Under the pieces are notes generated by a model. That model saw nothing but the letters and a program-made list of their open reading frames with translations, had not been told where the DNA came from and searched no databases. A stretch of 48,003 bases of DNA from Armatimonadota bacterium (GTDB lineage Bacteria; Armatimonadota; UBA5829), in NCBI GenBank assembly GCA_012522575.1, contig JAAYKE010000133.1, positions 1 to 48,003 on the forward strand. The letters run 5' to 3'. The translations under genes were made by a program, and so were the position numbers. Below, piece after piece: positions 7,104 to 47,791 of this stretch (its first letter is position 1; each line of letters starts with the position of its first letter).

Positions 7104-7233
7104 ATTAAACTCCATAGAACAGATAGAACAAATGCCGCAACTGCGATCCGTCAGGCGGCTGGGTTATGGCAAAAGGGTAATGTTTATACCTCATATATCA
7201 GGCTGCTGCCAATTAGCGATATTGCCAACCGAG

Positions 7234-7668
7234 TCACTTCTTGTTAGTAAAGTGCTCGATGCGCCTCAGAGTGGCAAGAGAAACCTTTCTTCGCTCCAGG
7301 GCCTGCTGCACTTTCAGTGAAAGCAGTTCAAATACATCAACCCCGGGAATATTCTTTTCGACATAGTCAAAGGCTCCCCTTTTCATACACTCAACCGCGT
7401 TACCGACGTTGCCATAGGCAGTCAGCACGATGAGTTCCGTAAAAATATCAGAGGCTAGCGCCGTCTGGAGCACCTCCAAACCGCTGGTAGGGGACTCCAT
7501 TACCATATCGGTGACAACCACATCATACGGCGGGTTATGCGTATTGATGGCCTCAATTCCCTCGGCCTGAGTTTCTGCGGTATCTACTTCGTAGTTGTCT
7601 CTTTCCAATCTTCGCTTAACCGCGCTGCGCACGGCTTCTTCGTCATCAATAACCAGTATTTTGCACAC
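7234..7668 (-). CDS. Response regulator receiver protein (stand-alone)
   Basis: A 144-residue CheY-like receiver with the phosphorylation site at Asp54 in VVVTDMVM, the acidic pair in VIDDEE near residues 8-10, and the conserved Thr/Ala (LTAYG) and Lys (YVEKN) switch residues. There is no DNA-binding or enzymatic output domain, only about 25 helical residues at the end. Start is GTG at 7668 with GGGAGG eight bases upstream. It lies 31 bases downstream of the histidine kinase on the same strand, so the two are a two-component pair. The output partner is not in this window; it could be another protein or a phosphorelay. Confidence 0.9.
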   Translation of the reverse strand: MCKILVIDDEEAVRSAVKRRLERDNYEVDTAETQAEGIEAINTHNPPYDVVVTDMVMESPTSGLEVLQTALASDIFTELIVLTAYGNVGNAVECMKRGAFDYVEKNIPGVDVFELLSLKVQQALERRKVSLATLRRIEHFTNKK

Positions 7669-7699
7669 CGGAAAACCTCCCTTGATATTGTAGGCTATA

Positions 7700-29224: not shown

Positions 29225-29275
29225 TACAGGACGGTATTTATTCTAACCTGAGCGATCAGACTTATGGAGCATTCA

Positions 29276-30496
29276 GTGACTGTTGAGCAACAATTTGAAA
29301 TTATCAAACGCGGCGTTCTGGACATCGTGCCGGAGGAAGAGCTGCTGGCAAAACTTAAAAAATCCCATCAAACCGGCAAGCCTCTCAGGATAAAACTCGG
29401 CATCGACCCGACGGCTTCCGACATACACATCGGGTTCGCCGTAGTCCTCAGGAAGATGCGGCAATTTCAGGATATGGGCCATCAGGTCATATTGATTGTC
29501 GGCGATTTTACCGCGTCCATCGGTGACCCGTCCGGCAAATCCGAGACCCGACCGATGCTTTCTGCCGAGCAGATACGGACAAATGCGGAGACCTTCGCGT
29601 CGCAGTTCTGGTTGATTCTCGACAGGGAAAAGACCACTGTGACGTTCAATGGCGATTGGCTCGGAAAGATGAGCTTTGCGGACGTGGTGCGGGAGACCTC
29701 GCGCGTCACCGTGGCCAGAATACTGGAGCGCGATGACTTCCAGAACAGGCTCTCTGAGGGCCGACCTGTCGGTTTGCATGAACTGCTGTATCCGATCGCG
29801 CAGGCCATTGACTCCGTGGAAGTGCAGGCGGATGTGGAGGTCGGCGGCAGCGATCAGCGATTCAATATACTTATGGGCAGAGATTTGCAGGAAGCCAACG
29901 GGATGGAGGCGCAGGTCGGGCTGTTTTTGCCGATTCTGCCCGGCATTGACGGCGTGCAGAAGATGAGCAAATCACTCGGCAATTATGTTGCAGTGACCGA
30001 CGAGCCGAATGATATGTTCGGTAAGATAATGTCGATTCCGGACGATGTGATGGCCGATTATTATACTCTTTGCACGGACGTCGGTACCGATGAAATCGAA
30101 GCTATAAAGGCAGGAATCGCATCCGGCAGCGTGCATCCTATGGACGCAAAGAAGCGTCTTGCCAGAGAAATTGTAACGATTTATCACTCAGCGCAGGCAG
30201 GCGTCGACGCGCAGGCAGAATTCGAGCGAGTCTTTAGTTCCAGGGAAGTCCCTCTCGATATGCCGGAGATTAATTTGCCCGAGTCCGAGCTTGAAAACGG
30301 ATCGATACGGCTGACCAGGCTGATTGCAATTGCCGAGATGGCATCATCGAGCAGCGAGGCCAGGCGGTTGATTCAATCCGGCGCGGTTTCTATCGACGGC
30401 GAAAAGATAACCGATGTTATGGGATCGATCACGCCGATTGATGGGCAGACTCTGCGGGTAGGCAAGCTCAAATTCGCACGATTACGCATGATTTGA
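29276..30496 (+). CDS. tyrS: Tyrosyl-tRNA synthetase
   Basis: I start at GTG 29276, with GGAG six bases upstream; the ATG at 29264 lies four codons earlier but has no site, and TyrZ-type enzymes begin as MTVEQQ-like. 406 residues. The class I signatures are HIGF (HIGH-like) and KMSKS, the middle has VGGSDQRFNILMGRDLQEAN, and the C-terminal S4 domain begins at about SIRLTRLIAIAE. It charges tRNA-Tyr. Confidence 0.95.
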   Translation: MTVEQQFEIIKRGVLDIVPEEELLAKLKKSHQTGKPLRIKLGIDPTASDIHIGFAVVLRKMRQFQDMGHQVILIVGDFTASIGDPSGKSETRPMLSAEQIRTNAETFASQFWLILDREKTTVTFNGDWLGKMSFADVVRETSRVTVARILERDDFQNRLSEGRPVGLHELLYPIAQAIDSVEVQADVEVGGSDQRFNILMGRDLQEANGMEAQVGLFLPILPGIDGVQKMSKSLGNYVAVTDEPNDMFGKIMSIPDDVMADYYTLCTDVGTDEIEAIKAGIASGSVHPMDAKKRLAREIVTIYHSAQAGVDAQAEFERVFSSREVPLDMPEINLPESELENGSIRLTRLIAIAEMASSSSEARRLIQSGAVSIDGEKITDVMGSITPIDGQTLRVGKLKFARLRMI

Positions 30497-30840: not shown

Positions 30841-33800
30841 TTACAGGCCGTATAGGGCGGCTACGCGCTCGTCGATCTCCCTCTCCCACTCCTCGCAGCC
30901 CTCTCCTCTCGCATCCAGACATTTCTGAACCAGACCCGATATCACCGCCATGTCGATTGACGAACAGCATGGCACAGGAAGGATCTTAGTGTATTGATGT
31001 TTGAAGCGCAGATATCCGCCTCTAATGGAAGCACATATCTGACGATAATATGTTTCAACAGAGGCGGAGTTGAGTAATCCAAGCAAAAATAGATCACTGC
31101 TCGCAATAAAACCAGCGGTGCACTCTACATAGTATCCCGAGTCTGCTAATGTAAAACGCGGCTCCTTGCAAATGTCGGGATGCACGATCTTAGGTTTGTC
31201 GAACTCATCGTAGTATTTGCAAGATCTCAGCTCCCACCATTGATCTCCTTTAGCTTGGCGTTTTTCCAATTGCGGCTGCCAGCGTTGAAGATGTTCCATT
31301 ATGGCAGGATAACGATTCATGTCAATCCCAACCTTGGTTGAAATTATCCAATTGTCCTCGCCTACAATCCGCCACTTTCTAACATCCTTTCCTACAATAA
31401 GCGGATTGATAATCTCAGCGCTTTTTGGGTCTGCGTCTATCAGTTCCTGCCTCTTCCCGGAGTTAATTATAAATGCCTTATTAAAGCCGATCAGTAATCC
31501 ATAATATATTTTACCGTTGACATATTCTCCTAGAGGCGTTCCTGCTTTGCGCATTTTCTCCAGAATATCTGCAGTTGTCGAATCCGCCAAAGTCCAGTTC
31601 GATCCCGCAAATGCGGATTCGGGAAGTTGGATACCCTGCCGGGTGGTTAGCTCGTGCACATTCGGGTATGGATCGTCAAGGGATTCAACATCTGTGAGAA
31701 CAGTACTCTGATGCGCTTCTCCTTTGCGGGCAATAAAAATCATCGCATAGGCAGTTGCATTTTGGAAAACAGGCAGATCTCCGAAATCGGTAATGCTCGT
31801 GACGGTGCAGTTGTCGGCGACGTGTTTTCTGAGCTTTTCCCCATAGCGTGCTTTTAACCATTTGTTGCTGCTGATAAATGACAACATACCGCCTTCTCTG
31901 AGCATCTGGATTGCACGCAGATAAAAATAGACATATAGATCGGCTTCGCTGCAGAAGAGGTCATCGTAGATTCCCTTTAGAGCGGGCTTGTCCGGCTTTA
32001 TCAATCGATGCCGAATGTAGGGCGGGTTTGCGACGATTATATCGAACCCGCCGGGTCGATTGTTCTGCGGATTGAATATCTCGGCGAAGTCCACCGACCA
32101 ATCGAATCGGATTTCATCTGTCTGCCTGCCGTCCATAAGGGCAATCTCCATGCGGAGATCGGAGATCGTCTTGTATAATTCGTGCTTTTGCGCGTTATGG
32201 GCGAGCAGATATTCCTCTTTGGCTTTCACATATTCATCGACTATGGTTTTGCGTAAATCGGTTGGCTGCGGGTTGGGACATATAACGCTGTCCCCTCGCT
32301 CTATCTTAAAGTCCAAGTTAGGCAGGGCAACCGCGTCGCGGGCATCGGGGTCGTCGATAGGATTTCTGGTGTCGTCAACCACCAGTGACAGCCACAGCCT
32401 CAGACGTGCGATGTTGACGGCGAACTGATCGCTGTCTACGCCGTAGAGGTTGTTTTGAATGATCTCCAGCTTGCGCTCATATACAGTGGCGGCGTCGACC
32501 TGCTTCACAGTGAACAGACAGGCGCGAAGGTCGAGAAGCTCGTGCAGCATTCCAAGCAGATATGCTCCGCTGCCGCACGCAGGGTCGCATACCCGCACGC
32601 TCTTTAACGCCTGCAAAGCGCGCTCCGGGTTGATGACGCCGGATGGGTCGTGCTCGTCTACGAATTTGGCGATGGCATCGCCTGAGGCTTCGGGCAACTG
32701 CTCGGACAGGTAGCCTTTGAGAGCCTCGCGGCACATAAAGGAGACAATGGGCTTGGGCGTGTAGTAGCTGCCGGTATCGTGGCGATTGGTTACCAGTTTT
32801 TCGAATATGCTGCCGAGCATCTCCGGGTCTACCGCCACATCGACGTCCAGTGGAGCGCTCTCGGTGATGGTAAAATTATATCCGCAAAACAGGTCGTTTA
32901 TGATGCGGTCGAACGCCCGGTTGTCTATCTGAACCGCGTCTTTGTGGTCGTCGACATCCTCGCACTGGAACAATCCGCCGTTTAGATATGGGACTTCTCC
33001 AATGGTGTCAACAACCTTTTTCTTTTCCTCGTCTTTAAAGGTCGGCGCAACTCCGGCAGCAGGCGAGCCGAGGCCGCAGAAGAAAAGCCAGTAGAGTCGA
33101 TCTCTGTAGAAGTTTTCCCCATTATCTATTGCCTCTTTATACAGCGTTTGGAGATAATTGGAGCTGCCCTTATACCTCAGCCACTTCTTTTTTTGTACGA
33201 ATTGCAGAAACAGCAGGCGGTTAAACAGGCGTATCGCAAACAGGCGTTTGTCGTTTTGCGTATGGCCGATGAATTGCTCTTCGACTGTTTTGAAGACAGC
33301 CTCATAGTTTCTGTAGAAGTCGTTGGATACCCGCTCTACGTCCCACGCGCTCAGCCAACGCTCGCGCATCGCATCCCAGTCCGGCTCATCTGACTTATTA
33401 AACTGCATCTTTAGCGCGGGCAGGTTGAACTCCAGCAGGGTTCTGGTTTCCTCCACACTGTCGGTCTCCCAACCGAATGTGCTCAACTTGGGCTGCTTGT
33501 TATCCCGCTGCTGGAAATGGGCGAAACTGAAACCGGAGTAGTTGTTGATTGCGCAGATGAAGATGATGCCTTGCAGGCTCTTGTTCTGGTATTGGCCTTG
33601 CGTGCGCATCTGTTCTCGAATGCGCCTTAGAATCTCGCGAAGCTCAGCTCTGCGGAACTGCGTTTCGAACTCGCAGAGCATAATGACAAATGGGTCGTCT
33701 GCTCCAAACGGGACGATCCGACTGACCTGCACTTTCGCTTCTGCGTTTGACGAAAGACGTGAGTCGGCGTAGGTGAAGGTGTCCTTATGATCCAGCGGCC

Positions 33801-33882
33801 AACTCAGAGTCTTATTGAGGAATGCGAAAAGGGTTTCTCGGTTGTGTATCGACGCCAGCGACTCTTTCGCAATGTAGGCCAT
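30841..33882 (-). CDS. Eco57I-like N6-adenine DNA methylase, large (operon A)
   Basis: 1013 residues from ATG 33882, whose A overlaps the helicase stop (TGATG) and has GGAG eight bases upstream. Motif I is VCDPACGSGAYLLG (about 431-444) and catalytic motif IV is IIVANPPYIRH (NPPY at 619-622), the order of gamma-class N6-adenine methylases. Residues 1-360 form a long N-terminal region with IVPFGADDPFVIMLCEFE then a helical module; no certain nuclease motif can be named. The C-terminal 300 residues probably recognise the DNA target (TaqI-like). Modification methylase in type IIG, BREX (PglX) or similar systems; here paired with a PLD-helicase. It ends against the repeats. Confidence 0.85.
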   Translation of the reverse strand: MAYIAKESLASIHNRETLFAFLNKTLSWPLDHKDTFTYADSRLSSNAEAKVQVSRIVPFGADDPFVIMLCEFETQFRRAELREILRRIREQMRTQGQYQNKSLQGIIFICAINNYSGFSFAHFQQRDNKQPKLSTFGWETDSVEETRTLLEFNLPALKMQFNKSDEPDWDAMRERWLSAWDVERVSNDFYRNYEAVFKTVEEQFIGHTQNDKRLFAIRLFNRLLFLQFVQKKKWLRYKGSSNYLQTLYKEAIDNGENFYRDRLYWLFFCGLGSPAAGVAPTFKDEEKKKVVDTIGEVPYLNGGLFQCEDVDDHKDAVQIDNRAFDRIINDLFCGYNFTITESAPLDVDVAVDPEMLGSIFEKLVTNRHDTGSYYTPKPIVSFMCREALKGYLSEQLPEASGDAIAKFVDEHDPSGVINPERALQALKSVRVCDPACGSGAYLLGMLHELLDLRACLFTVKQVDAATVYERKLEIIQNNLYGVDSDQFAVNIARLRLWLSLVVDDTRNPIDDPDARDAVALPNLDFKIERGDSVICPNPQPTDLRKTIVDEYVKAKEEYLLAHNAQKHELYKTISDLRMEIALMDGRQTDEIRFDWSVDFAEIFNPQNNRPGGFDIIVANPPYIRHRLIKPDKPALKGIYDDLFCSEADLYVYFYLRAIQMLREGGMLSFISSNKWLKARYGEKLRKHVADNCTVTSITDFGDLPVFQNATAYAMIFIARKGEAHQSTVLTDVESLDDPYPNVHELTTRQGIQLPESAFAGSNWTLADSTTADILEKMRKAGTPLGEYVNGKIYYGLLIGFNKAFIINSGKRQELIDADPKSAEIINPLIVGKDVRKWRIVGEDNWIISTKVGIDMNRYPAIMEHLQRWQPQLEKRQAKGDQWWELRSCKYYDEFDKPKIVHPDICKEPRFTLADSGYYVECTAGFIASSDLFLLGLLNSASVETYYRQICASIRGGYLRFKHQYTKILPVPCCSSIDMAVISGLVQKCLDARGEGCEEWEREIDERVAALYGL

Positions 33883-36800
33883 CAACGGACTCCTTTTTTC
33901 ATCTCCATCCAGCAGACGAGAGTGGAGACGATGGTGGACGGCAGCGATATGTCGGCAAAAGATGATCGGACAGCGGTTTTGAGGCGTTGTAACCCTCTGG
34001 ACAGCGTTGCCTCATCTGACGGCATAGCCGAATGCTCGCCCTCCACGGTTTTGGAAAGCATACCGAATATTTCTCCGGCTTCCAGCGTGATTCCTTTGTC
34101 GGTTTGCTCCATCGCCAAGACAGGACGGCCAATGACTGTCGCTAACTTCTCTTTGTCAAGCTCAGTAGCGCGCGGCGTGGGCTGCATTGTGAACAAAGCA
34201 AATAGACCATCAAGCGGCGCATTGTTCCATACTCCAAAAGCTCCGGGCGGCAAGGCGTCAAGCGTGGCAAGGGTTTTCTCGTCGGGCTTATCAAAGAGGC
34301 GTATATATTGCGTGGTCGCCTTATCCTGAGTGGTGACTTCGCCTTCATAGAACCTGTTGAACTCCTTCAGAGTGCCGTCAGGGTCGGTCGATTTGAAGAA
34401 CGATTCGTCGATGCCGATCGCCTTGCTGATCTTGAGCGTGCGATGCTCTACGGAATCTACCAGCCGGATGATCTCTTCGATTTCTGTGCAGGGCAATACG
34501 TTGTATATGGTGAACTCGTGTTTTTGCGGGGTGGTTTCCGCATCCAGACGACGGTCTACCCTGCCGATGCGCTGGATTAGGCGCACGGGGTTCCAGTGGA
34601 TGTCGTAGTTTAGAATGGCTCCCGCTTCCTGAAGATTGACTCCTTCGCTTAGAACATCGGTCGATATCAGCACATCGATTCTCTCTGGCACTGAGGGAGA
34701 TGAGGCCGCATCGTTGTAGCCGGGACAAAATGCATAGACTATCGCCGCTCGGGTTTTCTCGACTCGGGAGTCGATGCTGGCTATGTTGTATCCCTTGAGA
34801 CGATCGCGCAGTTCCATCGCAAGATATTCCGCCGTTCGCTGGCTCTGGGTGAACAGCAGTATGCGCTTGCCAGTCTTGAGTTCGTCCTCTATTTTCGGTA
34901 TGACTACTTTCAACTTTGGGTCGGGCTGCCTGCGCGCATCGATGATAGCTGCGTGTACCTCTTTGAGGAAGCCGAGGTCCTGGACAATATCGTCCCGCCA
35001 CCTATCGACGTCGAAACATTCCTGCGTGAAGCCTCTGAGCTTGCTATCCAACTTGCGCGCTCTAATAGCCTGCTCCAGCCATTGATCGACTTCGGCTCCG
35101 GAGGCGTCGAGCGCATCGCCGTCGACTGCTGCATCGATGTCGGGTTCGTCATCGGTGTCGGTATGGTGAATGAGTGTTCTGACCCATTGCTCGTGTTTGT
35201 CAGCGTATTTGTGTGCCTGGTCGCCTAATACGTGCTTGAGCCGGGCAATCAACCCGATGCCGATGCTTTGAATTATGCCCTGGAATGCCGCGGGGCTGCT
35301 TTCCAATTGTTTTAGAGCGTTTGCAAATACCAATCCGGCAAGGTGGACCTCGTCGCTGTATTGTTTGCTGGATGGCAGGGGTTGGCATCGGTATTGCTCG
35401 GTGAGGAAGGCCGCCAACTTGATGCCTTTTTTGGGGCCTTTCCTGAGGCAGGCAGGCAGGTCTGTTTTGCCGGCGCCTCTTATTTTTTCCAGCTCTCTTT
35501 TTACGTCTTCCAGATATTTGACGCCGGGACGAAACAGCTCGTGGGCGCGCTTGATGAGCTTGCTGTAATTCTCGCTTTCTTGTTCTATTTCATATTCGAT
35601 GCAAATCGGGCCGTGGCGTATCGGGAATCGGAGTTGCTCGCCGGTGGCCGCCGACAGGGCCTTGCAAGTGGCGCGGCTGCGCTGGATCATTACCTGTTCG
35701 AGGACCTGGTTCAGTGTTTTGTCGGGCGCTTCGATCGGCTTGAGCGTAAACTGGCCGGTGTAGTCCACTGTTTCTTCCTCTTTGTCCAGATTCCTTGCCG
35801 CTTTTCGGATTTGGTCTATTCCAAAACCGCCGATGCGTCCATCATCGTGCGTGATCAGCGCAAGTTGTGCGCTAATGTCCCTGTAGGAGGTGTTGATGGG
35901 AGTTGCCGTTAGCATTATGACCTTTTTGCGCTCCCCATTGACAGGGCCTATGATCTTGAACAGATTGACATAACGGTTCGCAGAGGTGGTGCGGAAGTTG
36001 TGGGATTCGTCGATCACAATCACGTTTGCACGACGCGAAAGACGCTCTACCTGCTTGCACTTGGACTCATTTGAATAATCCTCCGGGTCGAATCCGAAAT
36101 CGGTCATCGACAGTTTTCTGAAGTTGCCGAAGTCCTCGTCATAATCGCTCAGATGCCGCTTCAAATAGCCATTCCAACTGTTTTCGAGTATGTTTTTTGG
36201 AGCAATCAATAGAACATTGTTTGCTTGTTGGCAATAGTGTTCGATCAGGGCTAACGCGATAAAGCTCTTGCCCAGCCCTACTCCGTCTGAGATGAGAACG
36301 CCGTGCTCCCGCTCAAGTATCTTCAAGGATTGGAAGACTCCGTCAAGCTGGTGCTTGTCGAGCATTCTTATGAGTTCGCTCTCACGCGCGGTGGTGTCGC
36401 CCTGCCGATGCTGTCCCCAGGCGTATAGAGATTTTAGATAGAGATAATATGGGTCGTATAGCTCGATTTGTCGTCGAATCTCAGCCAGAAGATCATCTGT
36501 TACCACATCATCGACTGCTTCGTTCCATCGCTCGTCGTACCAGTTCCTGAGTTGGTTGGTCTGTTCTGGGGTCAGTTCAACGTTTAGCTCGATATTTTGC
36601 AGTAGTCCCGGCCTGGTAAAGTTGCCGCTTCCGATTACACCCATCTGCGCAGGGTGAATCGTTGGTCGTGTTATGAGATATGCTTTGGCATGAAATTTTT
36701 CTTTGGTGTAACAGCGGGCTTGCACGGCTCCGTTTGCAAACAGCTTTTCGATTTTTTTGAGTGGTGAAAGAAGAGACAGGTTTTCGCGCTGGGCCAAGAG

Positions 36801-37049
36801 ATCGGAATCCGAGACAGCGCGCAGTTTTTCCATCAACTGAACTCGCTGCCTGGCGCTGGCGTCATCGCCGAATAGAATTCGAACGCTGCTAAAGTCGGCA
36901 ACAACGTCGGCAAGTAGAAGCAGGGCCTCTAATGAAAAAAAAGCGGACGCAATCAACAGTTCATTACCGCCCGCCCCCATACGATCCAGACCAGCCAGAA
37001 GAGTGTTATCTTGACGATTATCTATAATGCTCAAATGAAGATCAGACAT
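33882..37049 (-). CDS. PLD-nuclease/SNF2-type helicase (operon A)
   Basis: 1055 residues from ATG 37049 with GGGGAG close upstream. Residues 1-160 are a PLD-like nuclease: one HxK half-site HAK (120-122) and GSGN (140-143), as in PLDc domains, so two subunits would be needed for a full active site. The helicase follows: Walker A DGVGLGKS (255-262), DESH (347-350), VIMLTATPINTS, and a C-terminal helicase lobe ending with the arginine-rich QRIGRVDRRLDAE. It probably translocates on DNA and may cut it. A TTGACT 17 bases upstream of CATATC (37105-37077) may be the promoter. Partner to the coupled methylase. Confidence 0.85.
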   Translation of the reverse strand: MSDLHLSIIDNRQDNTLLAGLDRMGAGGNELLIASAFFSLEALLLLADVVADFSSVRILFGDDASARQRVQLMEKLRAVSDSDLLAQRENLSLLSPLKKIEKLFANGAVQARCYTKEKFHAKAYLITRPTIHPAQMGVIGSGNFTRPGLLQNIELNVELTPEQTNQLRNWYDERWNEAVDDVVTDDLLAEIRRQIELYDPYYLYLKSLYAWGQHRQGDTTARESELIRMLDKHQLDGVFQSLKILEREHGVLISDGVGLGKSFIALALIEHYCQQANNVLLIAPKNILENSWNGYLKRHLSDYDEDFGNFRKLSMTDFGFDPEDYSNESKCKQVERLSRRANVIVIDESHNFRTTSANRYVNLFKIIGPVNGERKKVIMLTATPINTSYRDISAQLALITHDDGRIGGFGIDQIRKAARNLDKEEETVDYTGQFTLKPIEAPDKTLNQVLEQVMIQRSRATCKALSAATGEQLRFPIRHGPICIEYEIEQESENYSKLIKRAHELFRPGVKYLEDVKRELEKIRGAGKTDLPACLRKGPKKGIKLAAFLTEQYRCQPLPSSKQYSDEVHLAGLVFANALKQLESSPAAFQGIIQSIGIGLIARLKHVLGDQAHKYADKHEQWVRTLIHHTDTDDEPDIDAAVDGDALDASGAEVDQWLEQAIRARKLDSKLRGFTQECFDVDRWRDDIVQDLGFLKEVHAAIIDARRQPDPKLKVVIPKIEDELKTGKRILLFTQSQRTAEYLAMELRDRLKGYNIASIDSRVEKTRAAIVYAFCPGYNDAASSPSVPERIDVLISTDVLSEGVNLQEAGAILNYDIHWNPVRLIQRIGRVDRRLDAETTPQKHEFTIYNVLPCTEIEEIIRLVDSVEHRTLKISKAIGIDESFFKSTDPDGTLKEFNRFYEGEVTTQDKATTQYIRLFDKPDEKTLATLDALPPGAFGVWNNAPLDGLFALFTMQPTPRATELDKEKLATVIGRPVLAMEQTDKGITLEAGEIFGMLSKTVEGEHSAMPSDEATLSRGLQRLKTAVRSSFADISLPSTIVSTLVCWMEMKKGVR

Positions 37050-37444
37050 TTTTCTCCCCACAACAACAGCCGATGAGATATGACAGACTTAAATATAAGA
37101 GTCAATATCCCTTCTGTTGAGATATCAGGAGTTGGGATTGGTAAGAGGAATTATTCTACGTCGGCAGTAAATACCTGGCGGCGCCAAGGGGACAGGAGGG
37201 ATCTCGTGTAAACCACGTTCAATTCCAGGCGAAATATTTGGGAAAACGGAGGTTTCGGGTGAAGGTGTGGGAGTGAGGGGGGGAGTTGAATAATTGAATT
37301 TATGTGTACTTAATGGGTAGACTTTCACGGTGGTAGCTGCCAACACGTGAAGACCCGGCCTACTAACTAATCAACGAATCGTACTCATTAAGCATCGACT
37401 GTTACACACTGCCGCCTGCAGCAACAGGCGGCTCAACAGGAGTT

Positions 37445-37751: not shown

Positions 37752-40436
37752 TTAGTCTATGGTAACGACTGCATCCGTCGTCTGATACTGACCTACCAAA
37801 TGACTCAGCGTCGCGCTGGCACCTACCGCATCGTGTGGAATCAGCACATACTTCCATGGTTTGCCGCCGTGCTCCGATTCATGCTGGGTGGCATAATGGC
37901 ACCAGAGACAAGCGGCATCTGTCTTCGCCCGAACATCCATGTCTTCCAGTTCAGATGCTCTTTTAGTCTCCACAATTAGCTTTTCACCTTCTGTCTCGAC
38001 TACAAAGTCCGGCTCATAAAGATGCCCGTCTTTATAATCAATTCGAAACTGGCCCCGAGCAGGCTTGAACCATTTCAACTCTTCTCTGCAGTCCTCAAGT
38101 ACTATGGCGAAGCGGCGTTCGGTATCATTGTCAAATTTTTGTGTGGGATAAAGGCAGCGCCGGAAGCCACCGAAGAGCATTCCGCGCATATATAAGCGGT
38201 CATCGACCGGCGCACGGAAAGGCTTAATGTCTTGTCCGGCCAGCGCTGCGAAGCTGTTAGACCTCAAGGTTTCGAAGCCTTTGCTGACGTTGGCCTCGTA
38301 GCCGACTGCCTTCTCCCAATAGTGCGACTGCATCTGTGTATGGATGAATTCCGCGAGGGATCGCTGATGATATTGCAGCACATTGGAAAGCTCCTCCTCG
38401 TCCTTGAGATAGGACTGGAGATGCGTCACCATTTGGCTTGCGAGGTCGTATAGCAAGTCGGAATGATCATCATAGCTGATATCATCGTAATCCATCAGCG
38501 CCCGGACAAGATAATCTTCAGACCGCTCTTCGTGAATAACACCATCACCACTGATAAGTGACATACGCTCGTTTGACTGCAGGTGGTGGATGAGAATATC
38601 CCTGGCAACCGGCTGTGGGCGTATTCCGCTTATATCCAGAGTAAATGGATTGAATCCGCAGGATACTTCACCTTTGGGCACAACAATGATTCGTGGGATA
38701 TCGATGGAGTTCTCGATGAATGTGTCGATTGTCTTGGCGACGATATCGGCCACGTCCGCTTTCTCAGCAATTCCCTCGAACTGAGCTTGCGCCGGGGCGC
38801 ACACAGCCGACACCTGTTGAATTATCTGTTCTTGAACTTCCTCTGCTCGAAGGTTCGCTGATCTGGGCAACTTCTCAAAACGTCGGATGACTTCCAATGT
38901 AGCCTGCGCAACCTGGCGTTCAGCGGGGGATTCGAAAAGTAATTCCTGCTCTGCTGCAATAGCATCACTGGATGTGACACGGGTAACAAAGACCGGATTC
39001 ACGACTACCGTCTCCCGGCGTTCATCCGGGATATCACGACCAATGACGACGCCGGTGCGGATGATTGAGTTCGGATTGTTGGCTTCATCAATAATTTCTT
39101 GGAACTTATCGTGTGCAACAATTGTGAGACGGTCGACGGCTGCGACTCCTGTCCTCTTCCCGTAAGGAAGGCGCAGACCACGCCCTATAGTCTGGTGTAC
39201 CAAAATTTCAGCTTTAGCTGCTCTAAGAGGGACTATGGTATACAGGTTGTTTACATCCCAGCCCTCTTTGAGCTTATTTACGTGAATGACTATCTCAGTC
39301 GGTTCTTGAGTGCTCTCCACCTGAAGCAGGCGCTCGATAGTATCATCACGCTCTTCACCGCGCTGATTGGAGTGAACGGTAATCACGCGGTTTTCATATC
39401 GCCCATCGAAGAACGATTCGTCCCGAATCACCTTCTCAAGCGCATCCGCGTGCGTCGTATCCTGTGCAACCACCAACATGAAAGGCTTCACGATTGGCTG
39501 TTCATTCTGGCGGGCGTATACTTCTAGCTGGACTTTTGTATCTTCGTGAACTCGCACACCATCTTCCAGCTTGAGTCGTTCCAACTGCTCTTGTGTATAA
39601 TTGGATGCATTGAAGTTTTCACGTGTAGCGACTGCCGGCTCTTTAACGAAACCATCCTGCATCGCCGCTGATAGAGGATATCTGTAAATAATATTTTTGA
39701 ATGGAACAGGACCGCTCGGGCTTTCTTTCTGAGGTGTTGCCGTCAGTTCAAGACCGAGAATTGGCTTGAGTTCATTGATCGCGTTGATGCCTGCGGTAGC
39801 TCGGTATCTGTGCGATTCATCCATCATTAGAACAAGATCGTTCAAGTCGGAAAGGTAGTCGAAGTAGCTCTGGCCTATGTACTCCGAAAGCCGCTTGATT
39901 CTGGGTGCGCTGCCGCCTCTGACCTCGGAGTTGATCTTGGATATATTGAATATGTTGATGTGTACGACGTCACTGCCGAACAGAGTGACGCCTCTGATGC
40001 CACGCCCACTTTCGTAATTGTCCCCGGTAATGATCTCTGGCGGATTCTGGGCGAACTCGGCGATACCCTGAAATACATACTTAGGATTGCCGGGAGTGAA
40101 GTCGCCGATCAGCTTATTGTAAATCGTAAGGTTAGGAGCCAATACGAAGAAATGGCGAATGCCCTTGGCTTGAGAGAGATAAGATATGAAAGCGCCCATC
40201 AGTCGGGTTTTGCCGACGCCGGTGGCAAGAGCGAAGCACAGCGATGGAAAGTCACGCTCGAAGTCTTCAATGCCCGATTCTGGGAATTGCTGTTTGATTG
40301 CTTCCAAAGCTGCTGAAACATCCTGATCTTTGTCAAGCGGCAGCAGATCGGCAATTTCAGCCAAAATGTCCAGTGATGTCTTTTGGGGCGGTCGGAGGCT
40401 GAGGCGTTGGCTTATTGCGTTTGCTATCCTGTTCAT
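37752..40436 (-). CDS. Type III restriction endonuclease subunit (Res), helicase-nuclease
   Basis: 894 residues. Walker A ATGVGKT (71-77), DESH (206-209), LELTATPQ and VHQTIGRGLRLPYGKR (arginine-rich motif VI) are intact. The C-terminus has a PD-(D/E)xK nuclease: EPDFVVETEGEKLIVETKRA at about 808-827, with Asp810, Glu823 and Lys825. In type III systems Res moves or diffuses along DNA after Mod recognition and cuts about 25 bases away. The start codon overlaps the mod stop by 4 bases (ATGA). Last gene of operon B. Confidence 0.92.
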   Translation of the reverse strand: MNRIANAISQRLSLRPPQKTSLDILAEIADLLPLDKDQDVSAALEAIKQQFPESGIEDFERDFPSLCFALATGVGKTRLMGAFISYLSQAKGIRHFFVLAPNLTIYNKLIGDFTPGNPKYVFQGIAEFAQNPPEIITGDNYESGRGIRGVTLFGSDVVHINIFNISKINSEVRGGSAPRIKRLSEYIGQSYFDYLSDLNDLVLMMDESHRYRATAGINAINELKPILGLELTATPQKESPSGPVPFKNIIYRYPLSAAMQDGFVKEPAVATRENFNASNYTQEQLERLKLEDGVRVHEDTKVQLEVYARQNEQPIVKPFMLVVAQDTTHADALEKVIRDESFFDGRYENRVITVHSNQRGEERDDTIERLLQVESTQEPTEIVIHVNKLKEGWDVNNLYTIVPLRAAKAEILVHQTIGRGLRLPYGKRTGVAAVDRLTIVAHDKFQEIIDEANNPNSIIRTGVVIGRDIPDERRETVVVNPVFVTRVTSSDAIAAEQELLFESPAERQVAQATLEVIRRFEKLPRSANLRAEEVQEQIIQQVSAVCAPAQAQFEGIAEKADVADIVAKTIDTFIENSIDIPRIIVVPKGEVSCGFNPFTLDISGIRPQPVARDILIHHLQSNERMSLISGDGVIHEERSEDYLVRALMDYDDISYDDHSDLLYDLASQMVTHLQSYLKDEEELSNVLQYHQRSLAEFIHTQMQSHYWEKAVGYEANVSKGFETLRSNSFAALAGQDIKPFRAPVDDRLYMRGMLFGGFRRCLYPTQKFDNDTERRFAIVLEDCREELKWFKPARGQFRIDYKDGHLYEPDFVVETEGEKLIVETKRASELEDMDVRAKTDAACLWCHYATQHESEHGGKPWKYVLIPHDAVGASATLSHLVGQYQTTDAVVTID

Positions 40437-42202
40437 ACCCCTACCTCGTCGTCGAAGAGATTCATTGTACCTGTGTCCAGCTTCGTTCGCTTGCCGTCGT
40501 TTGAGGATTGCACTTCTTTGCCGACTTCCGACGGCGCTGGCGGCAGGACGGATATCTGCAGGCTGTAATCATCTCGGCCGTATTCGCACTTATTCAAAAC
40601 GGCCTTGGGTATCTTTTTAATCGTAAGGTTATGAAACTCGTCCTGATTGGCGCGAAACGCAGTGCAGCAGATAAGAAGTGTGCGTTGTTCGCCAACTTCC
40701 TCGCTTATTTGCGCAAGTTGATTGCGGCTGAGTGTTTGCGTAGTAATATATATAAAATCGGATTCGGTGGAGCGCCCGTGCTGCCAATAGACCGCATCGC
40801 TGGGGTCGAACTCGAAGTTCAGGTGTTTGCACATTGCCTCCGCGAGCATTTCGGCATTATATTCTTTGTTGATGATAAGGTTGCCCCATTTGTCTTTTTG
40901 CAGCAGGGACGGCGCCAGCCTGTAATACCGGAACCCTCCTCCGCCTTTCCAGTCAACAGCTTTGCTGATGCCGCCCTGGTCTTCGCCATCTATCACTTTG
41001 CGCAAACGCGGGATTATGTGTGTATGGCAATGTTCGCCAAGCTCGACCATGATCCATCGTCGTCCCATCTTGTGGGCAACAGCACCGGTCGTGCCGGAAC
41101 CAGCAAAGGAATCTAATACCCAATCACCCGGCTCTGTAGAGAGATCGAAAACGCGCTTGATTAGACCTTCCGGTTTTTTGCCCTTTGGAAAATGTACCCC
41201 GCCCTCCTTATGCAGATTGTTTGATAGAATATCATCCCAAATCGTTGTGAGCGGTTCGCCTGACACGTACTTGCCATCAATCATTTTCAGTTTATCGCTG
41301 TAGAATAGTATTCGCTCTCCGCCGATGAAATACATGTTGGAGTGCCCATCACGCTCCAGCAGGAATATTCTGGATGGTTTGGCTACTGATCGGTCGATCA
41401 TTGCTCTCACCTGAGCACCTACGCCGTCGTAGTTTGGACGAGCCGTACGAATCACACGATCTGCGTTCTGCAAAACAAAGTCACTCAGCAGAGACTCAAA
41501 CTCGGCTTTCTTTCGCAGAGTCTTGACATCAATTCTACCCTCTCGTGCTAACGCCTGCGTAAGAGGCACAAATCGCCATTGTTGATAAGGATCTTCCTTA
41601 TTTTCAATGATCTTTGTGTACCGCTTGTCCCGCTCCCTAGCTGTGTAAACTCGATTGCACTTCCATTTGGATTTATCCCTGACATACATGAGCACGAAGT
41701 TTGAGGTACTGACACAGCCTGGATTAATGGCTTTATGGCCGGTTGCTGATCCTTGTTTGAAAGTGATAACAGACACTCTATTATCGCGGCCGAACACCTC
41801 ATCAAGCAATACAATAAGATACCCAAGCTCCACATCGTCTATATGCACGAAGATTGTGCCTTCCTGATGCAGCAGGCGACTCAGCAGTTCCAGTCGATCA
41901 CGTATTAGTGACAGCCATGTTGAGTGCTCGACACCATCTTCATAATATTCGGATACGTCCGGGATGTTGAAAGGCGGGTCAATATATATGCACTTGATCT
42001 TCCCTGCGAATTCTTGCTCCAGAGCCTTTAGCGCAAGGAGGTTATCGCCGAAGATAAGACGGTTATCAAAGATGTCGCTATCCGACACTCGATGCCGGGC
42101 GTGATACGACAACTCCGGATCCTCCAATAGAATCCTAGGCTCCAGCCTCGGCCGGTTTTCTTTTCCTATCCAGGTTAGTTCGAGTTTGGTATGGTTGGGC
42201 AT
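40433..42202 (-). CDS. Type III modification methylase (Mod), N6-adenine, beta class
   Basis: 589 residues from ATG 42202 (AGGAA upstream; the frame runs 18 codons further but those overlap the ATPase gene). Catalytic motif IV DPPF (75-78) precedes the SAM motif DSFAGSGTTG (364-373), the beta-class order of type III Mod. The middle 200 residues form the target-recognition domain. Mod defines the recognition site for both methylation and cleavage. It lies 8 bases after the ATPase stop and overlaps res by 4. Confidence 0.93.
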   Translation of the reverse strand: MPNHTKLELTWIGKENRPRLEPRILLEDPELSYHARHRVSDSDIFDNRLIFGDNLLALKALEQEFAGKIKCIYIDPPFNIPDVSEYYEDGVEHSTWLSLIRDRLELLSRLLHQEGTIFVHIDDVELGYLIVLLDEVFGRDNRVSVITFKQGSATGHKAINPGCVSTSNFVLMYVRDKSKWKCNRVYTARERDKRYTKIIENKEDPYQQWRFVPLTQALAREGRIDVKTLRKKAEFESLLSDFVLQNADRVIRTARPNYDGVGAQVRAMIDRSVAKPSRIFLLERDGHSNMYFIGGERILFYSDKLKMIDGKYVSGEPLTTIWDDILSNNLHKEGGVHFPKGKKPEGLIKRVFDLSTEPGDWVLDSFAGSGTTGAVAHKMGRRWIMVELGEHCHTHIIPRLRKVIDGEDQGGISKAVDWKGGGGFRYYRLAPSLLQKDKWGNLIINKEYNAEMLAEAMCKHLNFEFDPSDAVYWQHGRSTESDFIYITTQTLSRNQLAQISEEVGEQRTLLICCTAFRANQDEFHNLTIKKIPKAVLNKCEYGRDDYSLQISVLPPAPSEVGKEVQSSNDGKRTKLDTGTMNLFDDEVGV

Positions 42203-42210
42203 GAGTATTC

Positions 42211-44583
42211 CTACGGGCGTTCCAAAGGGCGCATTTCGACGCCACCGCATTGACATCTGTAGTGATCTCCCGCTTGGCGCCTAGCTAGACTGCCACAAGT
42301 GGGGCAAACGAGCGCATTTACGAAATCTAAGGTATTCTTGCCAAACGCCTCCACATCGGTGTTGGCAATTTCCGAACCATCCACATTGAAATGGCAGCCG
42401 ACTTGGTTTCTGATAAACGCAAGTCTGCTAACCTTGTCATACAATGGCTTAATCTGAATCTCTACAGCAGGAGGTTGTACACCATTTTCCTTTGGCGGCT
42501 GCCGTTTCACGATTAGCACCTTCGAAAGCTTCGCGACACTGTCGAGCAGTTCACCGAGTGTAAAGTCGCCGCTTCTACGGTGTGGCACCGCGCAGCCATA
42601 TAGCATCGACACATGATCCAGCACAGCCTCAAGTAGTATGCCTGATTCTGCGGCCACAGACTGACGAGCAAATGGTTCGCTGGCAAGCTTGACTTTCAGC
42701 TCGTCCACTTGCAGTTTCGTATTATACATACGGACTCCGTTGTTCCTAGACCATCGATGCAGCTCGACTAACTGTACGGCACGCCCTGGTGCTTGTGATA
42801 GTCGGTAACGGTCGCGCCACTGACGAAAATGCGTTGTGATAATGAGATGGTTGAAACTACTGCTTTCGTCCGCCAGAAGGTCAATTATCCGAGTCAAGTG
42901 CACGGCATCCACCGATGTGAATATGTCATCCAGCACGACGATGGCATCACCGTTACTGTAGTGTTTTGCTACGGCAAGAAACATCGCAAAACCAAGTGTA
43001 TCAAGGTGAGATTCGCTAAAGTAGGCCTGCGGCGGAACCTCGGCCGCACCAAGGAATGTGGCGTCTTGGTACAAGGAACCTTTCTTTTTGTCGTCCAGAT
43101 ATAGGCGCAAGTCACCAAGTGATTCCCCAGGATGCAATTTCTCGTATATGCGGTTACACTCTGCCGATACTTCATTCAATATATTTTGACTGAACTTCAA
43201 TCGTTTGCTCCGCACAATCTCAGATGCCTTTTCTAGCCCTTCCGATACGGCTTTAGTGTCTCGAACCTTCTCTTCATTCTCTAGCATGCGTTCGTAGTGC
43301 AAACTGACGGCGTTGAACTGTTCAATATCCGAAGATAGCTGTTTTTCAATCATCTGCATTTTCGCTTTATTTCCGCTCAAAGCTGATAAAGTCGCGGCTA
43401 CCTGCTTGATATCCATCGCTTTACCGTTCTCGTCCATATCTGTTTCGGGAACAGATGATTGAGACACAGGACAATCATCAATCTGTGCTTTGCACAATGC
43501 ATCCAGTGATTGGAAGAGTTTACCTGCCTCGAGTAAAACATCCTCTGTAGTGCTTGCAACCTGTTTTTTAGCCAGTTCAACATCACGTTCTGCTGACTGT
43601 AGTCGTTCATTGATAGTACTCAGGTTAGTCATGGCGGAAAGTCGAGCGTTTATCCGATTCAACAAATCAGCCGCAACAATTGGGTTCTCGCAAAGAGGAC
43701 AAGCCTTTCTGTCGTTATGAGCCGCAATAAATATCTTCCCCTTTTCCAGTATATCGACGATATCTACACCATCTTCGCCCTCTATTGTCGGTGCCTTTGC
43801 TGCATCTTTTTGGGCATTAGCAAGCACATTTCTCGCGGCTGAAAGGTCCGTGTTATATTTCTCTAATCTCGCTACCTCGGTTTCACACTTGTTCAGTTGC
43901 TGTAGCAGTTCACTGATAGCTGAATGCTGTGCTTTCACGACTGTCATGTCTGCCGCAGACTTCGCAGCAGCCCAACCCACAGCACTGATAGAAGGAGAAT
44001 CAGGTTTGCCCTCAGCCTCCCAGAGTTTCTGGAGATAGTCTTCTGCTTCCACCTTCGCCTTGACAGCCTCATCATAACGCTGTTTGGCAACACGTGCGGC
44101 GTCTATCAATGCATCCTCGCATCTTTCTATGCCCTCTACATCTATGAATCTTTTGAGTTCTCCAAACCTATCTGCCGGCCGTGCTTCAATGAGGCGCAGC
44201 AATTGACTTCTTCTAAGAATATGCGCAGATGGATTAGGAGTAGGGCCAACGGTTACTATGTCTCGGCCACTCATGTTTCCCTTCCACGCGTTACCACCCA
44301 AATGGACCTCAACCTGGAGTTCCGTTTGTTCACTTCCCAAGGACGGCAGGTGCTTCTGTATGGTTGTGGAGCTTCTCTCGGCAACTGATCCACCAGACTT
44401 GTTGCAAACAAAATCTATAGCATCGACAATGGTTGACTTGCCGGTGCCATTTTCACCAAAGATTACAGTTACCGGTTTGTTGGTGTCGAAGTTCAACTCA
44501 GTCTTGGCGGTTGCACCCCTGAATTTGGTCAGGCATATCTTATTGATGCGCTTGCTACTATCAGGCTTGCTTGTGTTTAACAT
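42211..44583 (-). CDS. Rad50/RloC-like ATPase with CPLC hook, HEPN-like motif and zinc ribbon
   Basis: 790 residues. I start at ATG 44583, with GGAGG six bases upstream; the frame runs 23 codons further but those overlap the 65-residue gene. Walker A is GENGTGKS (43-50). A long helical region (about 170-480) contains CPLC (295-298), like the zinc hook of Rad50 and RloC. Walker B is in AIVVLDDIFTSVDAVHL. After the ATPase lobes comes a helical module with RLAFIRNQVGCHF, an R-x5-H pattern (Arg725, His731) typical of HEPN ribonucleases, then a zinc ribbon (CPTC, CQCGG; 760-779). RloC is a hook-containing ATPase linked to anticodon nuclease activity and restriction loci. RNase activity here is inference. 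Confidence 0.8.
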   Translation of the reverse strand: MLNTSKPDSSKRINKICLTKFRGATAKTELNFDTNKPVTVIFGENGTGKSTIVDAIDFVCNKSGGSVAERSSTTIQKHLPSLGSEQTELQVEVHLGGNAWKGNMSGRDIVTVGPTPNPSAHILRRSQLLRLIEARPADRFGELKRFIDVEGIERCEDALIDAARVAKQRYDEAVKAKVEAEDYLQKLWEAEGKPDSPSISAVGWAAAKSAADMTVVKAQHSAISELLQQLNKCETEVARLEKYNTDLSAARNVLANAQKDAAKAPTIEGEDGVDIVDILEKGKIFIAAHNDRKACPLCENPIVAADLLNRINARLSAMTNLSTINERLQSAERDVELAKKQVASTTEDVLLEAGKLFQSLDALCKAQIDDCPVSQSSVPETDMDENGKAMDIKQVAATLSALSGNKAKMQMIEKQLSSDIEQFNAVSLHYERMLENEEKVRDTKAVSEGLEKASEIVRSKRLKFSQNILNEVSAECNRIYEKLHPGESLGDLRLYLDDKKKGSLYQDATFLGAAEVPPQAYFSESHLDTLGFAMFLAVAKHYSNGDAIVVLDDIFTSVDAVHLTRIIDLLADESSSFNHLIITTHFRQWRDRYRLSQAPGRAVQLVELHRWSRNNGVRMYNTKLQVDELKVKLASEPFARQSVAAESGILLEAVLDHVSMLYGCAVPHRRSGDFTLGELLDSVAKLSKVLIVKRQPPKENGVQPPAVEIQIKPLYDKVSRLAFIRNQVGCHFNVDGSEIANTDVEAFGKNTLDFVNALVCPTCGSLARRQAGDHYRCQCGGVEMRPLERP

Positions 44584-44758
44584 CAAGTGCCTCCTCAATC
44601 CAGCGGTTCCAGTCTTCTGCTTTCGCTGTTCCTGTCGTGAGTTTCTTGACAATATCCGCCTCTCTGGTATTGATGACCAGTTCCGCGTCCTTAAGAGCTT
44701 TTGCGACTACTACTGCAAGCTCTTCATTCGGTGTTTTTAATACAATCTCATCGGACAT
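44561..44758 (-). CDS. Small protein of operon B, 65 residues
   Basis: 65 residues with AAAGGTGG six bases before ATG 44758. It overlaps the ATPase start by 23 bases and follows the helicase stop by 17, so expression is coupled. The sequence (MSDEIVLKTPNEELAVVVAK, then helical, ending DWNRWIEEALDVKHKQA) is mostly helical with a mild acidic character and no known motif. It may be a structural or regulatory partner of the ATPase or helicase. Confidence 0.75.
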   Translation of the reverse strand: MSDEIVLKTPNEELAVVVAKALKDAELVINTREADIVKKLTTGTAKAEDWNRWIEEALDVKHKQA

Positions 44759-44775: not shown

Positions 44776-47637
44776 CTAGGTTACCTGCCATCTCACATTG
44801 AACAACACAGAACTACTAACTTCTTGCTGCAACCTTGCCTCAACCTTGGTAATCAACTGCTCTTTGCTCTCATCAATTTTATCTTGCGCTGCAAACAACT
44901 CACGGCGCTTCCTGTTGCGCTGGGATTCCAGATTTTTCTTTTCCTTGTGAAGGGCAATCTTATCTTCGAGTGCCGCTGTTATTTTGGCATCCCTTGAAAC
45001 TTGCTTGATCTGCAGATCAAGATCCTTAAGTTCTGTTTCCAGGCCGTGCTTCAGGTCTTCCGCCCAACGGTCCAATTTTTCTATCTCTTCATCGAAAAAC
45101 TTGTTGTTACGCTCTGCAATGCCGCTAATTACTGACTCCTGCAAACCGGTGGAGATATCGGCAAGCGATGCACCGACTTCATCGGAAATAGCAACCTCGC
45201 CAGCCAACTTGCCGGGAACACTAAATAGCTTTTCGCAAGCATCCGGCAACATGGAGTTGCCATTGTCATCGATACCGGCAAGAATCATTACATCTTCATC
45301 TTCCAGCGCCGAGACTGTGAGCTTGCTTACCTGCAACCACCCTGATTTCCCAACAAGCTCTTTGATAAGTCCCGCGTGTTCGGGCCAGTTCGTATAATCG
45401 AAAACGATATGAACCGGCGGCAACGTCCGTTGCTTAGCTCGATCGATAATAGCTTCGGCGAGTTGACCGCCATAACGATAAGGTCTCAGGCCGTCCACAC
45501 TGTGTCCCGGTGCAAGAAACTGATAACGCCCGGTCTGAAAATCCGGCAAACCATCTGGAGCGCTCTTGATGTGAAACTGTAGGTCTGAATCGTTGAACTC
45601 CGCATTGTGTGAAAGCTCTGACTTTGTGAGTTCCCAAAAGTATCGCTCCACCTTCCCAAGAAACGCAGTGCTCTCTTCGCTGTTTATTCGGAGCCTATTG
45701 CGCACGTCCTCATCGAAGTTTTCCAAAAGCTTGGTCCGAGTGTCGGCCATACGAGCTTGAATCTCTTCGTCAAGCTCAAGTCTCAACTGATCGAACGCGC
45801 AGTTTATCTCACCTTCCGTGCGACAGCGTTGGTAGATATCAGCAATTCGGCGTTCAAAATCCATACCCGACTCAAGCGCACCAAGCACTTCATCTGACGA
45901 ACCAAAAACACCTTGGAACAGGCGGAACTTCTCGTCCAGAAGTTCAAATACACGCCGGTCGGCTGCATTGCTGCGATTCAGGAAGTTAATGACCACGACG
46001 TCATATTCCTGCTTGTATCTGTGACATCTACCTATTCTCTGTTCTATCCGCTGAGGGTTCCAAGGCAGGTCGTAGTTAATCACAAGAGAACAGAACTGGA
46101 GATTAATCCCTTCGGCAGCGGCTTCAGTTGCTATAAGTATATCAGAGTGGTCTCGAAAATGCTCCACGAGTGCGACGCGGATATCGACTACCTTGCTGCC
46201 GGTGACGACCGGTTCGCCCTTGTGCAACTCGACCCACGCCTTATATATCTCTCGGCTGCGATCGTCGGAGTTGACTCCGTTGATAGTGAGAACATTGCCA
46301 TCGTAGCCATTGTTACTGAGAAGAGAGAACAAATACTCCTGTGTACGCCGTGATTCGGTGAAGATAACAGCCTTTCGGTTTGCGCCGAGTTCCTCTAATT
46401 TCTCAAATCCTTGTCTAAGCGCTACAAGTAGTGCCTGTCCTTTTGCGTTGATAGTGATAGATTTTGCAAGGTCGCCGAATTCAGCGAGTTCCTTTATCTC
46501 GGCTAGAATCTCCTGCTTTTCAGAGGATTCCCGGCTTTCAAGTTCAATATTTGTCGCTGTATCCGGATCCGCCCATTCCTCGGATATTTCCTCAAGAGCC
46601 TCGAAATCTTCTGAGGCAGATTTTAATACATCCTGGTGCTTACCTTCAAGGCGGGACTTCAGTGATTCCAACGTAGCCGCAATTGCAAACGTGGAGGATG
46701 CCAACAGTTTCCGTAAAACCAACGTCACCAAGCGGCGCTGGCTGATGGGAAGTGCGTGAAGCTCGTCCTTGCTGAGATAACTGGAAACTTGATCATAAAG
46801 GAGTTGTTCTTCATTAGTCGGCGTAAAGTCCTGAGTTATCGGAATGCGATTCGTAAAACGAACATATTCTGTTACTTGCCGTCGAAGCGTGCGTTGACAA
46901 ATCGGCTTCAGCCGCAAACGAAGTTCGTTTAGTTGCCGGTTTTCGATTGGCCCGTGCATATAGCGAGCCTTGAATGCATTTATATCACCGAAGAGATGTT
47001 CATCAATAAAACTAACCAGACCATACAACTCCAATAACGAATTCTGCAGAGGGGTAGCTGTGAGCAATAGAAGTGGCCTATTCGATATAGACTTTCTGAT
47101 GGAGGTTGCTATCCGATTGCCGGGCTTATACACATTACGGAGTCGATGCGCCTCATCGACAACAACCAGATCCCAAGGTACGCCAGCGATTTCACGATTC
47201 TTGCCCCATGCGAAGTGATACGAACAAATAACCACCTTGTTATCCTGCAAGATCGCCGATTCCCCACGTTTTGCTTTCGCCTTATATTCGCGAGAATCTA
47301 CAATTACAGAATCGATATGAAACTTGTCTGCCAGTTCTTGCGCCCACTGTTTACGCAGTATTGTGGGGGCAATAATCAGGATGCGTCGCTTATGCTCACA
47401 CCAAAGTTGGCTGATAATCAAGCCTGCTTCAATAGTCTTTCCTAGACCTACCTCATCGGCGAAGATTGCCCCACGAGATAATGGAGAACGAAATGCAAAA
47501 AGAGCGGCATCCAGTTGATGTGGGTTCAGGTCGACCATTGCGCTAAAAATCGATGGCCCTAACTTGGCAAGATTATCGGAGGAATTCCTCTTGGTTAATT
47601 CGTGAGCGTAGTAAGCTGCGTGATATGGAGTTGACAT
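44776..47637 (-). CDS. SNF2-like helicase with C-terminal coiled coil (first gene of operon B)
   Basis: 953 residues from ATG 47637; the frame extends 32 codons further to 47733, but those residues are unlike the family. Motor motifs: Walker A DEVGLGKT (61-68), DEAH (161-164), LLLTATPLQNS, and a second lobe with NPQRIEQRIGRCHRYKQEYD. The last 110 residues are a coiled coil (EIEKLDRWAEDLKHGLETE, then KEKKNLESQRNRKRRE). No nuclease motif is seen. It probably moves DNA-bound complexes. Upstream Shine-Dalgarno is weak; TATAAT lies about 40 bases before the start. Confidence 0.9.
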   Translation of the reverse strand: MSTPYHAAYYAHELTKRNSSDNLAKLGPSIFSAMVDLNPHQLDAALFAFRSPLSRGAIFADEVGLGKTIEAGLIISQLWCEHKRRILIIAPTILRKQWAQELADKFHIDSVIVDSREYKAKAKRGESAILQDNKVVICSYHFAWGKNREIAGVPWDLVVVDEAHRLRNVYKPGNRIATSIRKSISNRPLLLLTATPLQNSLLELYGLVSFIDEHLFGDINAFKARYMHGPIENRQLNELRLRLKPICQRTLRRQVTEYVRFTNRIPITQDFTPTNEEQLLYDQVSSYLSKDELHALPISQRRLVTLVLRKLLASSTFAIAATLESLKSRLEGKHQDVLKSASEDFEALEEISEEWADPDTATNIELESRESSEKQEILAEIKELAEFGDLAKSITINAKGQALLVALRQGFEKLEELGANRKAVIFTESRRTQEYLFSLLSNNGYDGNVLTINGVNSDDRSREIYKAWVELHKGEPVVTGSKVVDIRVALVEHFRDHSDILIATEAAAEGINLQFCSLVINYDLPWNPQRIEQRIGRCHRYKQEYDVVVINFLNRSNAADRRVFELLDEKFRLFQGVFGSSDEVLGALESGMDFERRIADIYQRCRTEGEINCAFDQLRLELDEEIQARMADTRTKLLENFDEDVRNRLRINSEESTAFLGKVERYFWELTKSELSHNAEFNDSDLQFHIKSAPDGLPDFQTGRYQFLAPGHSVDGLRPYRYGGQLAEAIIDRAKQRTLPPVHIVFDYTNWPEHAGLIKELVGKSGWLQVSKLTVSALEDEDVMILAGIDDNGNSMLPDACEKLFSVPGKLAGEVAISDEVGASLADISTGLQESVISGIAERNNKFFDEEIEKLDRWAEDLKHGLETELKDLDLQIKQVSRDAKITAALEDKIALHKEKKNLESQRNRKRRELFAAQDKIDESKEQLITKVEARLQQEVSSSVLFNVRWQVT

Positions 47638-47674
47638 ATTTTTTATCGCAATACGAGTTGATTTTCGTCTCTTT

Positions 47675-47680
47675 ATTATA
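47675..47680 (-). promoter_or_regulatory. Possible -10 element of operon B
   Basis: TATAAT on the - strand gives a predicted start near 47668 and a leader of about 31 bases. No convincing -35 is visible, and the site lies between the array and the first gene. Confidence 0.35.
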
Positions 47681-47791
47681 TATTCATTTCGGGCAGAGAT
47701 ATTCCTTCGATGACTGCAGATTATACAACGCACTCACACAATGATTTGCGGTAACTCTCAAGAGCCAACATAACTGACTGATGCACTCGTG

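Follow-up and report, generated by a model that had tools for sequence, protein, structure and literature searches.

A hooked ATPase with a predicted HEPN-fold domain and a small partner gene in a variable slot of DrmD-like helicase/type III restriction-modification operons

Introduction

Can a type III restriction-modification (R-M) operon carry a guard of its own, i.e. an effector that cuts RNA once restriction is blocked? PrrC, which like RloC is a tRNA cutter, is a characterised guard of a type I restriction system, and its pairing with this enzyme is the standard example of restriction guarding, while for type III systems a few RloC linkages have been noted before. The question is raised by a 48,003-nucleotide stretch of Armatimonadota DNA (contig JAAYKE010000133.1, hereafter the window), in which a gene for a hook-bearing ATPase was found next to type III genes. 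A sequence-only reading of this gene had proposed that its product ends in a HEPN-like module and could be an anticodon nuclease-like effector. In this study, the ATPase, its relatives and their genomic surroundings were analyzed.

Results and discussion

The ATPase gene

The gene is located on the minus strand (42211–44583), as are all features of the operon described below, and it encodes a Rad50/RecF-type ABC ATPase of 790 amino acids with a hook, a HEPN-fold C-terminal domain and a zinc ribbon (Pfam, alignment of relatives and AF2 modelling). The bounds given for it hold exactly, with the ATG at 44583 and the stop at 42211, and a GAGGAGG Shine-Dalgarno sequence lies upstream of the ATG. 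The protein is matched by the Pfam profile AAA_23 (E 1.1e-12).

All of the elements named in the sequence-only reading are present in the open reading frame. These are: (i) a Rad50-type Walker A motif, GENGTGKST (residues 43–51; 44431–44457), (ii) a mid-coil CPLC hook with C295 and C298 (residues 295–298; 43690–43701), (iii) a C-terminal helical module containing RNQVGCH (R725–H731; 42391–42411), the predicted active-site motif, and (iv) a C-terminal zinc ribbon, CPTC...CQC, built from C760, C763, C777 and C779 (residues 760–779; 42247–42306). The alignment of relatives further revealed an ABC signature-like YFSESHLD (residues 521–528; 43000–43023) and a Walker B motif with D-loop, VVLDDIFTSVD (residues 549–559; 42907–42939), with the DD...SxD pattern of RloC-type proteins. 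Among relatives of only about 20% identity no variation was seen at the Walker A residues, the CPxC of the hook (alignment A1), LDD, E652, H731 or the four cysteines of the ribbon, while R725 varies in the same alignment. The AF2 model of the whole protein consists of an SMC/Rad50 head (best Z 24), a coiled coil at about residues 150–483 with the hook located between the two arms, and a helical domain at the C-terminus.

In individual relatives the ribbon cysteines are gone (L031 and L034) or partly gone (L033) and the HEPN residues are retained, so the zinc ribbon is dispensable.

The small partner gene

A gene for a 65-amino-acid protein (44561–44758), overlooked in the sequence-only reading together with the helicase gene upstream of it, overlaps the start of the ATPase gene by 23 nt. 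A small open reading frame (about 55–90 amino acids) precedes the ATPase in 34 of the 35 loci with upstream sequence, from plasmids of Bacteroidota to haloarchaea, and therefore the unit is the gene pair. The two genes overlap (usually by 4–26 nt) or abut in nearly all loci, and in most of the plasmid relatives the small gene is annotated as a CDS.

Homologues of the small protein of the window that are 38–40% identical to it occur in two of the genomes analyzed (G042 and G121). The small proteins of the near clade can be aligned as a single family, which hhalign did not join with the distant-clade ones (E 0.043). The small protein matched no Pfam or NCBIfam family above cut-off, and its sole PADLOC match was weak (HEC-02B, E 0.007).

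Two near-clade loci keep the small gene and lack the HEPN domain: the ATPases of L092 (5802–7616, minus strand) and L095 (7201–9246) carry neither this domain nor the zinc ribbon. This state could reflect an alternative effector or decay.

The operon core and its variable slot

The sequence-only reading placed the ATPase gene within a type III R-M operon, and both flanking type III genes were recovered. The type III methyltransferase gene (40433–42256; PADLOC MTase_III, 655 bits) encodes DPPF and FAGSGTT motifs, and the type III restriction nuclease gene (37752–40436; PADLOC REase_III, 795 bits) encodes helicase motifs and PD...ExK. The methylase gene likely starts at the ATG at 42202 rather than at 42256, and with this start it no longer overlaps the ATPase gene. 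The first gene of the operon core encodes a DrmD-like SNF2 helicase (44776–47733), which scored 708 bits with PADLOC DrmD and 712.6 bits with NCBIfam DISARM_DrmD_b, below the cut-off of 950 for the latter.

With Bacteroidota excluded, the DrmD-like helicase was found upstream in all eight HEPN-bearing near-clade loci with enough sequence. A type III methylase and nuclease lie downstream in eight near-clade loci outside Bacteroidota, belonging to Gallionellaceae, Methylotenera, Chromatiaceae, a deltaproteobacterium, an uncultured proteobacterium, the window and the genomes G121 and G024. The helicase, the type III methylase and the type III nuclease constitute a recurrent core, and the operon is seen again in genomes of the window's own phylum. 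A reverse search, starting from the type III nuclease and the helicase, was performed in 291 genomes of the phylum of the window and yielded seven further loci in which this core encloses other content between helicase and methylase. In these loci the slot holds SIR2 with HerA, an IrrE-type peptidase together with an HTH protein, DUF3800, HTH_66/DUF433 genes or unknowns, or it is empty, and in other near-clade loci KwaB, Bro-N or AIPR genes are added. The ATPase-HEPN pair is thus one of several interchangeable accessories, and several of these are known or likely abortive-infection effectors.

Two loci illustrate the range of slot contents. In a genome of the phylum of the window (L125, contig G201:C13) SIR2-like, HerA-like and nucleoside deoxyribosyltransferase-like genes (3400–8097) fill the slot between helicase and methylase. 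In the Gallionellaceae locus (L025; 4335–8045 and 12890–13993) genes for a HATPase protein and for a KwaB-like one are found in the slot, and methylase and nuclease are separated by a RhuM gene.

The C-terminal domain has a predicted HEPN fold

The C-terminal domain (about residues 622–758; 42310–42720) was modelled with AF2 from the C-terminal 201 residues and an alignment of 13 sequences (pLDDT 82, pTM 0.79). The top 1000 Foldseek chains were re-aligned with VIA and the first 21 matches were all HEPN-type (Z 10.8 to 7.3, where values below about 13 are weak to modest for helical bundles), while unrelated bundles started only at Z 5.7. The best match was 2hsb (Z 10.8, rmsd 2.7 Å over 118 residues), and AF0298, HepT toxins, Csm6 and the sacsin HEPN domain are among the HEPN-type matches. 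Most titles of the 21 entries name HEPN, HepT/MNT or Csm6; the remaining ones (2q00, 2jpu, 1wty, 1ylm and 1wwp) we take to be HEPN-like. Considering the modest Z values, it is the exclusive ranking that makes the argument for the fold. The four-helix HEPN bundle is thereby predicted, as the structural check proposed in the sequence-only reading had envisaged, and the description of the protein as a hook-bearing ATPase with a HEPN-like C-terminal module agrees with the model and the structural alignments.

A very improbable explanation, already disfavoured, is that R-x5-H arose by chance in an ordinary helical tail with no relation to HEPN. Shuffling of the C-terminal stretch produced Rx4-6H in 53% of cases (R[NDH]x3-5H in 8.7%), so the motif alone means little; Foldseek alone gave no match with E ≤ 1e-3 in the PDB (HEPN structures ranked 6 and 9), and sequence searches of the domain against Pfam and the PDB returned nothing relevant and no HEPN family match. 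Chance, however, accounts poorly for top structural alignments that are HEPN-type in 21 of 21 cases and for a motif histidine that is invariant. The case for HEPN is carried by the conservation of the motif and by the fold, not by the motif itself.

Active-site conservation and a mobile arginine

Relatives were gathered from plasmids, genome contigs and whole genomes, and the 34 members with the C-terminal domain were counted. Conservation in the HEPN region is highest at H731 (34/34), at E652 (33/34; 42628–42630, helix 2), which is the predicted active-site acid, and at N726 (32/34). The HEPN survey lists a histidine, an upstream acid and a polar residue as the active site of these domains (PMC3710099), and the conservation observed is the pattern expected of a HEPN RNase site.

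The arginine behaves differently from the histidine. In the window and the near clade the Rx4-6H motif, with a polar residue after the arginine, takes the form R725-N726-x4-H731, while in distant members the arginine has moved. An arginine near position 725 was found in 21 of the 34 members (shifted by one residue in one of them, L035), and in the other 13 it is located at 648, four residues ahead of E652 (R-x3-E). Each member carries exactly one of these arginines; none has both and none has neither. The near clade, including the window, combines a glycine at the R-x3-E site (G648-x3-E652) with R-N-x-V-G-x-H. The conservation of both Arg725 and His731, on which the sequence-only reading had staked its case, holds fully for the histidine and for the arginine within the near clade, the distant members having R-x3-E instead.

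The C-terminal domains of the two clades are homologous (hhalign E 3.5e-14 over 175 columns). A tree of the ATPase part has two large groups that correspond to the two arginine states, apart from one or two long-branched exceptions, and this indicates that the relocation reflects few events. The paired loss and gain of an active-site arginine amounts to a natural mutational test of the way in which HEPN RNases function.

It could be argued that the domain has no catalytic activity and acts as an adaptor that binds RNA or protein, with the ATPase tethering or sensing DNA on behalf of the type III nuclease and the helicase. Non-catalytic HEPN domains are numerous (PMC3710099), the arginine is mobile, and the domain is absent in L089, L092 and L095. 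We nevertheless regard this as improbable, as conservation within the domain is highest at the His, Glu and Asn, with overall identity at about 20%, and exactly one arginine is kept in every member.

Comparison with known systems

RloC is a close parallel in architecture: like the protein of the window, it is an ABC ATPase interrupted by a coiled coil that carries a CxxC hook, which in the window is the CPLC between the coiled-coil arms. RloC and PrrC also have in common with it a C-terminal HEPN-class domain, the DDxxxSxD Walker B/D-loop pattern and a linkage to R-M. Their catalytic triad is R-x3-E-x36-52-H (PMC2610378), and distant members of the ATPase family show the same R-x3-E ... H order. 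The ATPase of the window lacks this triad: its arginine is at 725 and its Glu-His spacing is 79, against about 40. It differs further by the extra zinc ribbon and the near-universal small partner gene. The alignment to RloC and PrrC suggested in the sequence-only reading did not bring the nuclease domains together, since the profile comparison with eight AAA_13 sequences (hhalign) gave E 0.49 with the near clade and 0.012 with the distant one. The AAA_13 profile itself scored 23.9 bits with the ATPase, below the gathering score of 36, and 47.9 bits with one distant relative. An assignment to RloC/PrrC was rejected on these three grounds (nuclease domain, triad and AAA_13 cut-off). In the way it is proposed to work the protein is like RloC, but its nuclease domain and triad are not those of RloC. 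The same reading considered a pairing of such an enzyme with a type III system unusual; it is not unprecedented, as 8 of 72 RloC genes had already been reported at type I or type III loci (PMC2610378).

Lamassu was considered as well. LmuB is the best PADLOC match of the ATPase (81 bits) and holds Foldseek rank 4, and small partner proteins are likewise a theme of Lamassu. In the window, by contrast, the effector is a HEPN domain within the ATPase polypeptide itself, and neither LmuA nor LmuC appeared among the PADLOC matches listed (best 25 per protein) for the operon neighbours or the small protein. This assignment was therefore rejected.

Other systems resemble parts of the locus. MNT/HepT HEPN toxins and Csm6 share the predicted four-helix bundle, the R-N...H motif and the upstream acid, but here the HEPN domain is fused to a Rad50-like ATPase and there is no nucleotidyltransferase antitoxin. 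With DISARM class 1 and type III R-M the locus has in common the operon core, formed by a DrmD-like helicase and ordinary type III enzymes; it differs from DISARM in the helicase score, which is below the model cut-off, and within the window DrmA, DrmB or DrmC was not the best PADLOC match of any neighbour. PARIS and PrrC-type guards share the proposed principle of an RNA-cutting effector that is coupled to an ATPase and becomes active upon a block of restriction, although PARIS has another class of ATPase and another nuclease (OLD-ABC with TOPRIM). No Pfam, NCBIfam or PADLOC model names the ATPase-HEPN family. No description of the operon was found in the literature searched; a 2020 classification of the ABC ATPases of conflict systems may hold an earlier description of the family.

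Proposed mode of action and distribution

In the reading that we prefer, and on which our judgement is evenly balanced, the two genes form a back-up defence module (hooked ATPase with HEPN RNase, and small regulator) within the variable slot of the DrmD-like helicase/type III R-M operon. The head and the hooked coiled coil would sense DNA or the state of restriction, while the small protein would bind the ATPase and either keep it silent or signal firing. The C-terminal domain would be a metal-independent RNase with E652, R725-N726 and H731 as its active site, followed by the zinc ribbon. When invading DNA escapes or blocks restriction, an ATP-driven rearrangement of the head may free the HEPN site, which would then cut cellular RNA, most plausibly tRNA as RloC and PrrC do, and growth would stop. 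We infer the RNase activity, its RNA target, the role of the small protein and the trigger from the features described above. By analogy with the tRNA cutters PrrC and RloC, the module probably shuts the cell down once the first defence fails.

The main rival is that the small protein and the HEPN-ATPase are a self-contained defence (toxin-antitoxin-like) pair, which senses phage DNA structures itself and rides in the operon without coupling to the type III enzyme. The distribution of the pair is in keeping with such autonomy: it occurs without any type III system on plasmids of Hymenobacter, Fibrella and others, so coupling to restriction is not obligatory, and it is found near AbiE, DarT or TIR genes in alphaproteobacteria and within a BREX-5 cluster. 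The tight overlap or abutment of the two genes points the same way, and RloC itself is mostly unlinked to R-M and activated by DNA breaks. Against it, several phyla (near clade outside Bacteroidota) share one gene order, namely helicase, small gene, ATPase, methylase and nuclease, which suggests selected coupling. We consider full autonomy a serious but rather doubtful explanation.

Extended from the window to all relatives, the reading of a back-up module becomes more tentative, and we put it forward as a proposal slightly more apt to fail than to hold. It describes an unnamed family spanning bacteria and haloarchaea, composed of a small regulator and a hooked ATPase-HEPN RNase whose catalytic arginine has moved between two sites. 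The pair would be one of several interchangeable back-up effectors that plug into a dedicated DrmD-helicase/type III slot (and a BREX-5 cluster) and kill the cell or arrest it once restriction is defeated. If this is true, restriction guarding would be a general design, with a recurrent type III operon whose slot accepts toxic effectors unrelated to one another.

No relative was found in phage records, and in viral contigs only matches of the size of a Walker A motif were obtained. The BREX-5 case is that of Halorhabdus tiamatea (L007, 5021–13664), in which the small gene and the ATPase gene lie between pglX and pglZ. In the window, a second, defence-like pair of genes neighbours the type III operon (30841–37061, minus strand), encoding a PLD-nuclease/SNF2 helicase (33882–37061) and an Eco57I-type IIG restriction-methylase (30841–33885) with a 4-nt overlap. 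Together with the type III operon this IIG pair forms a 17-kb defence island, which follows a tyrosyl-tRNA synthetase-like gene (29264–30496).
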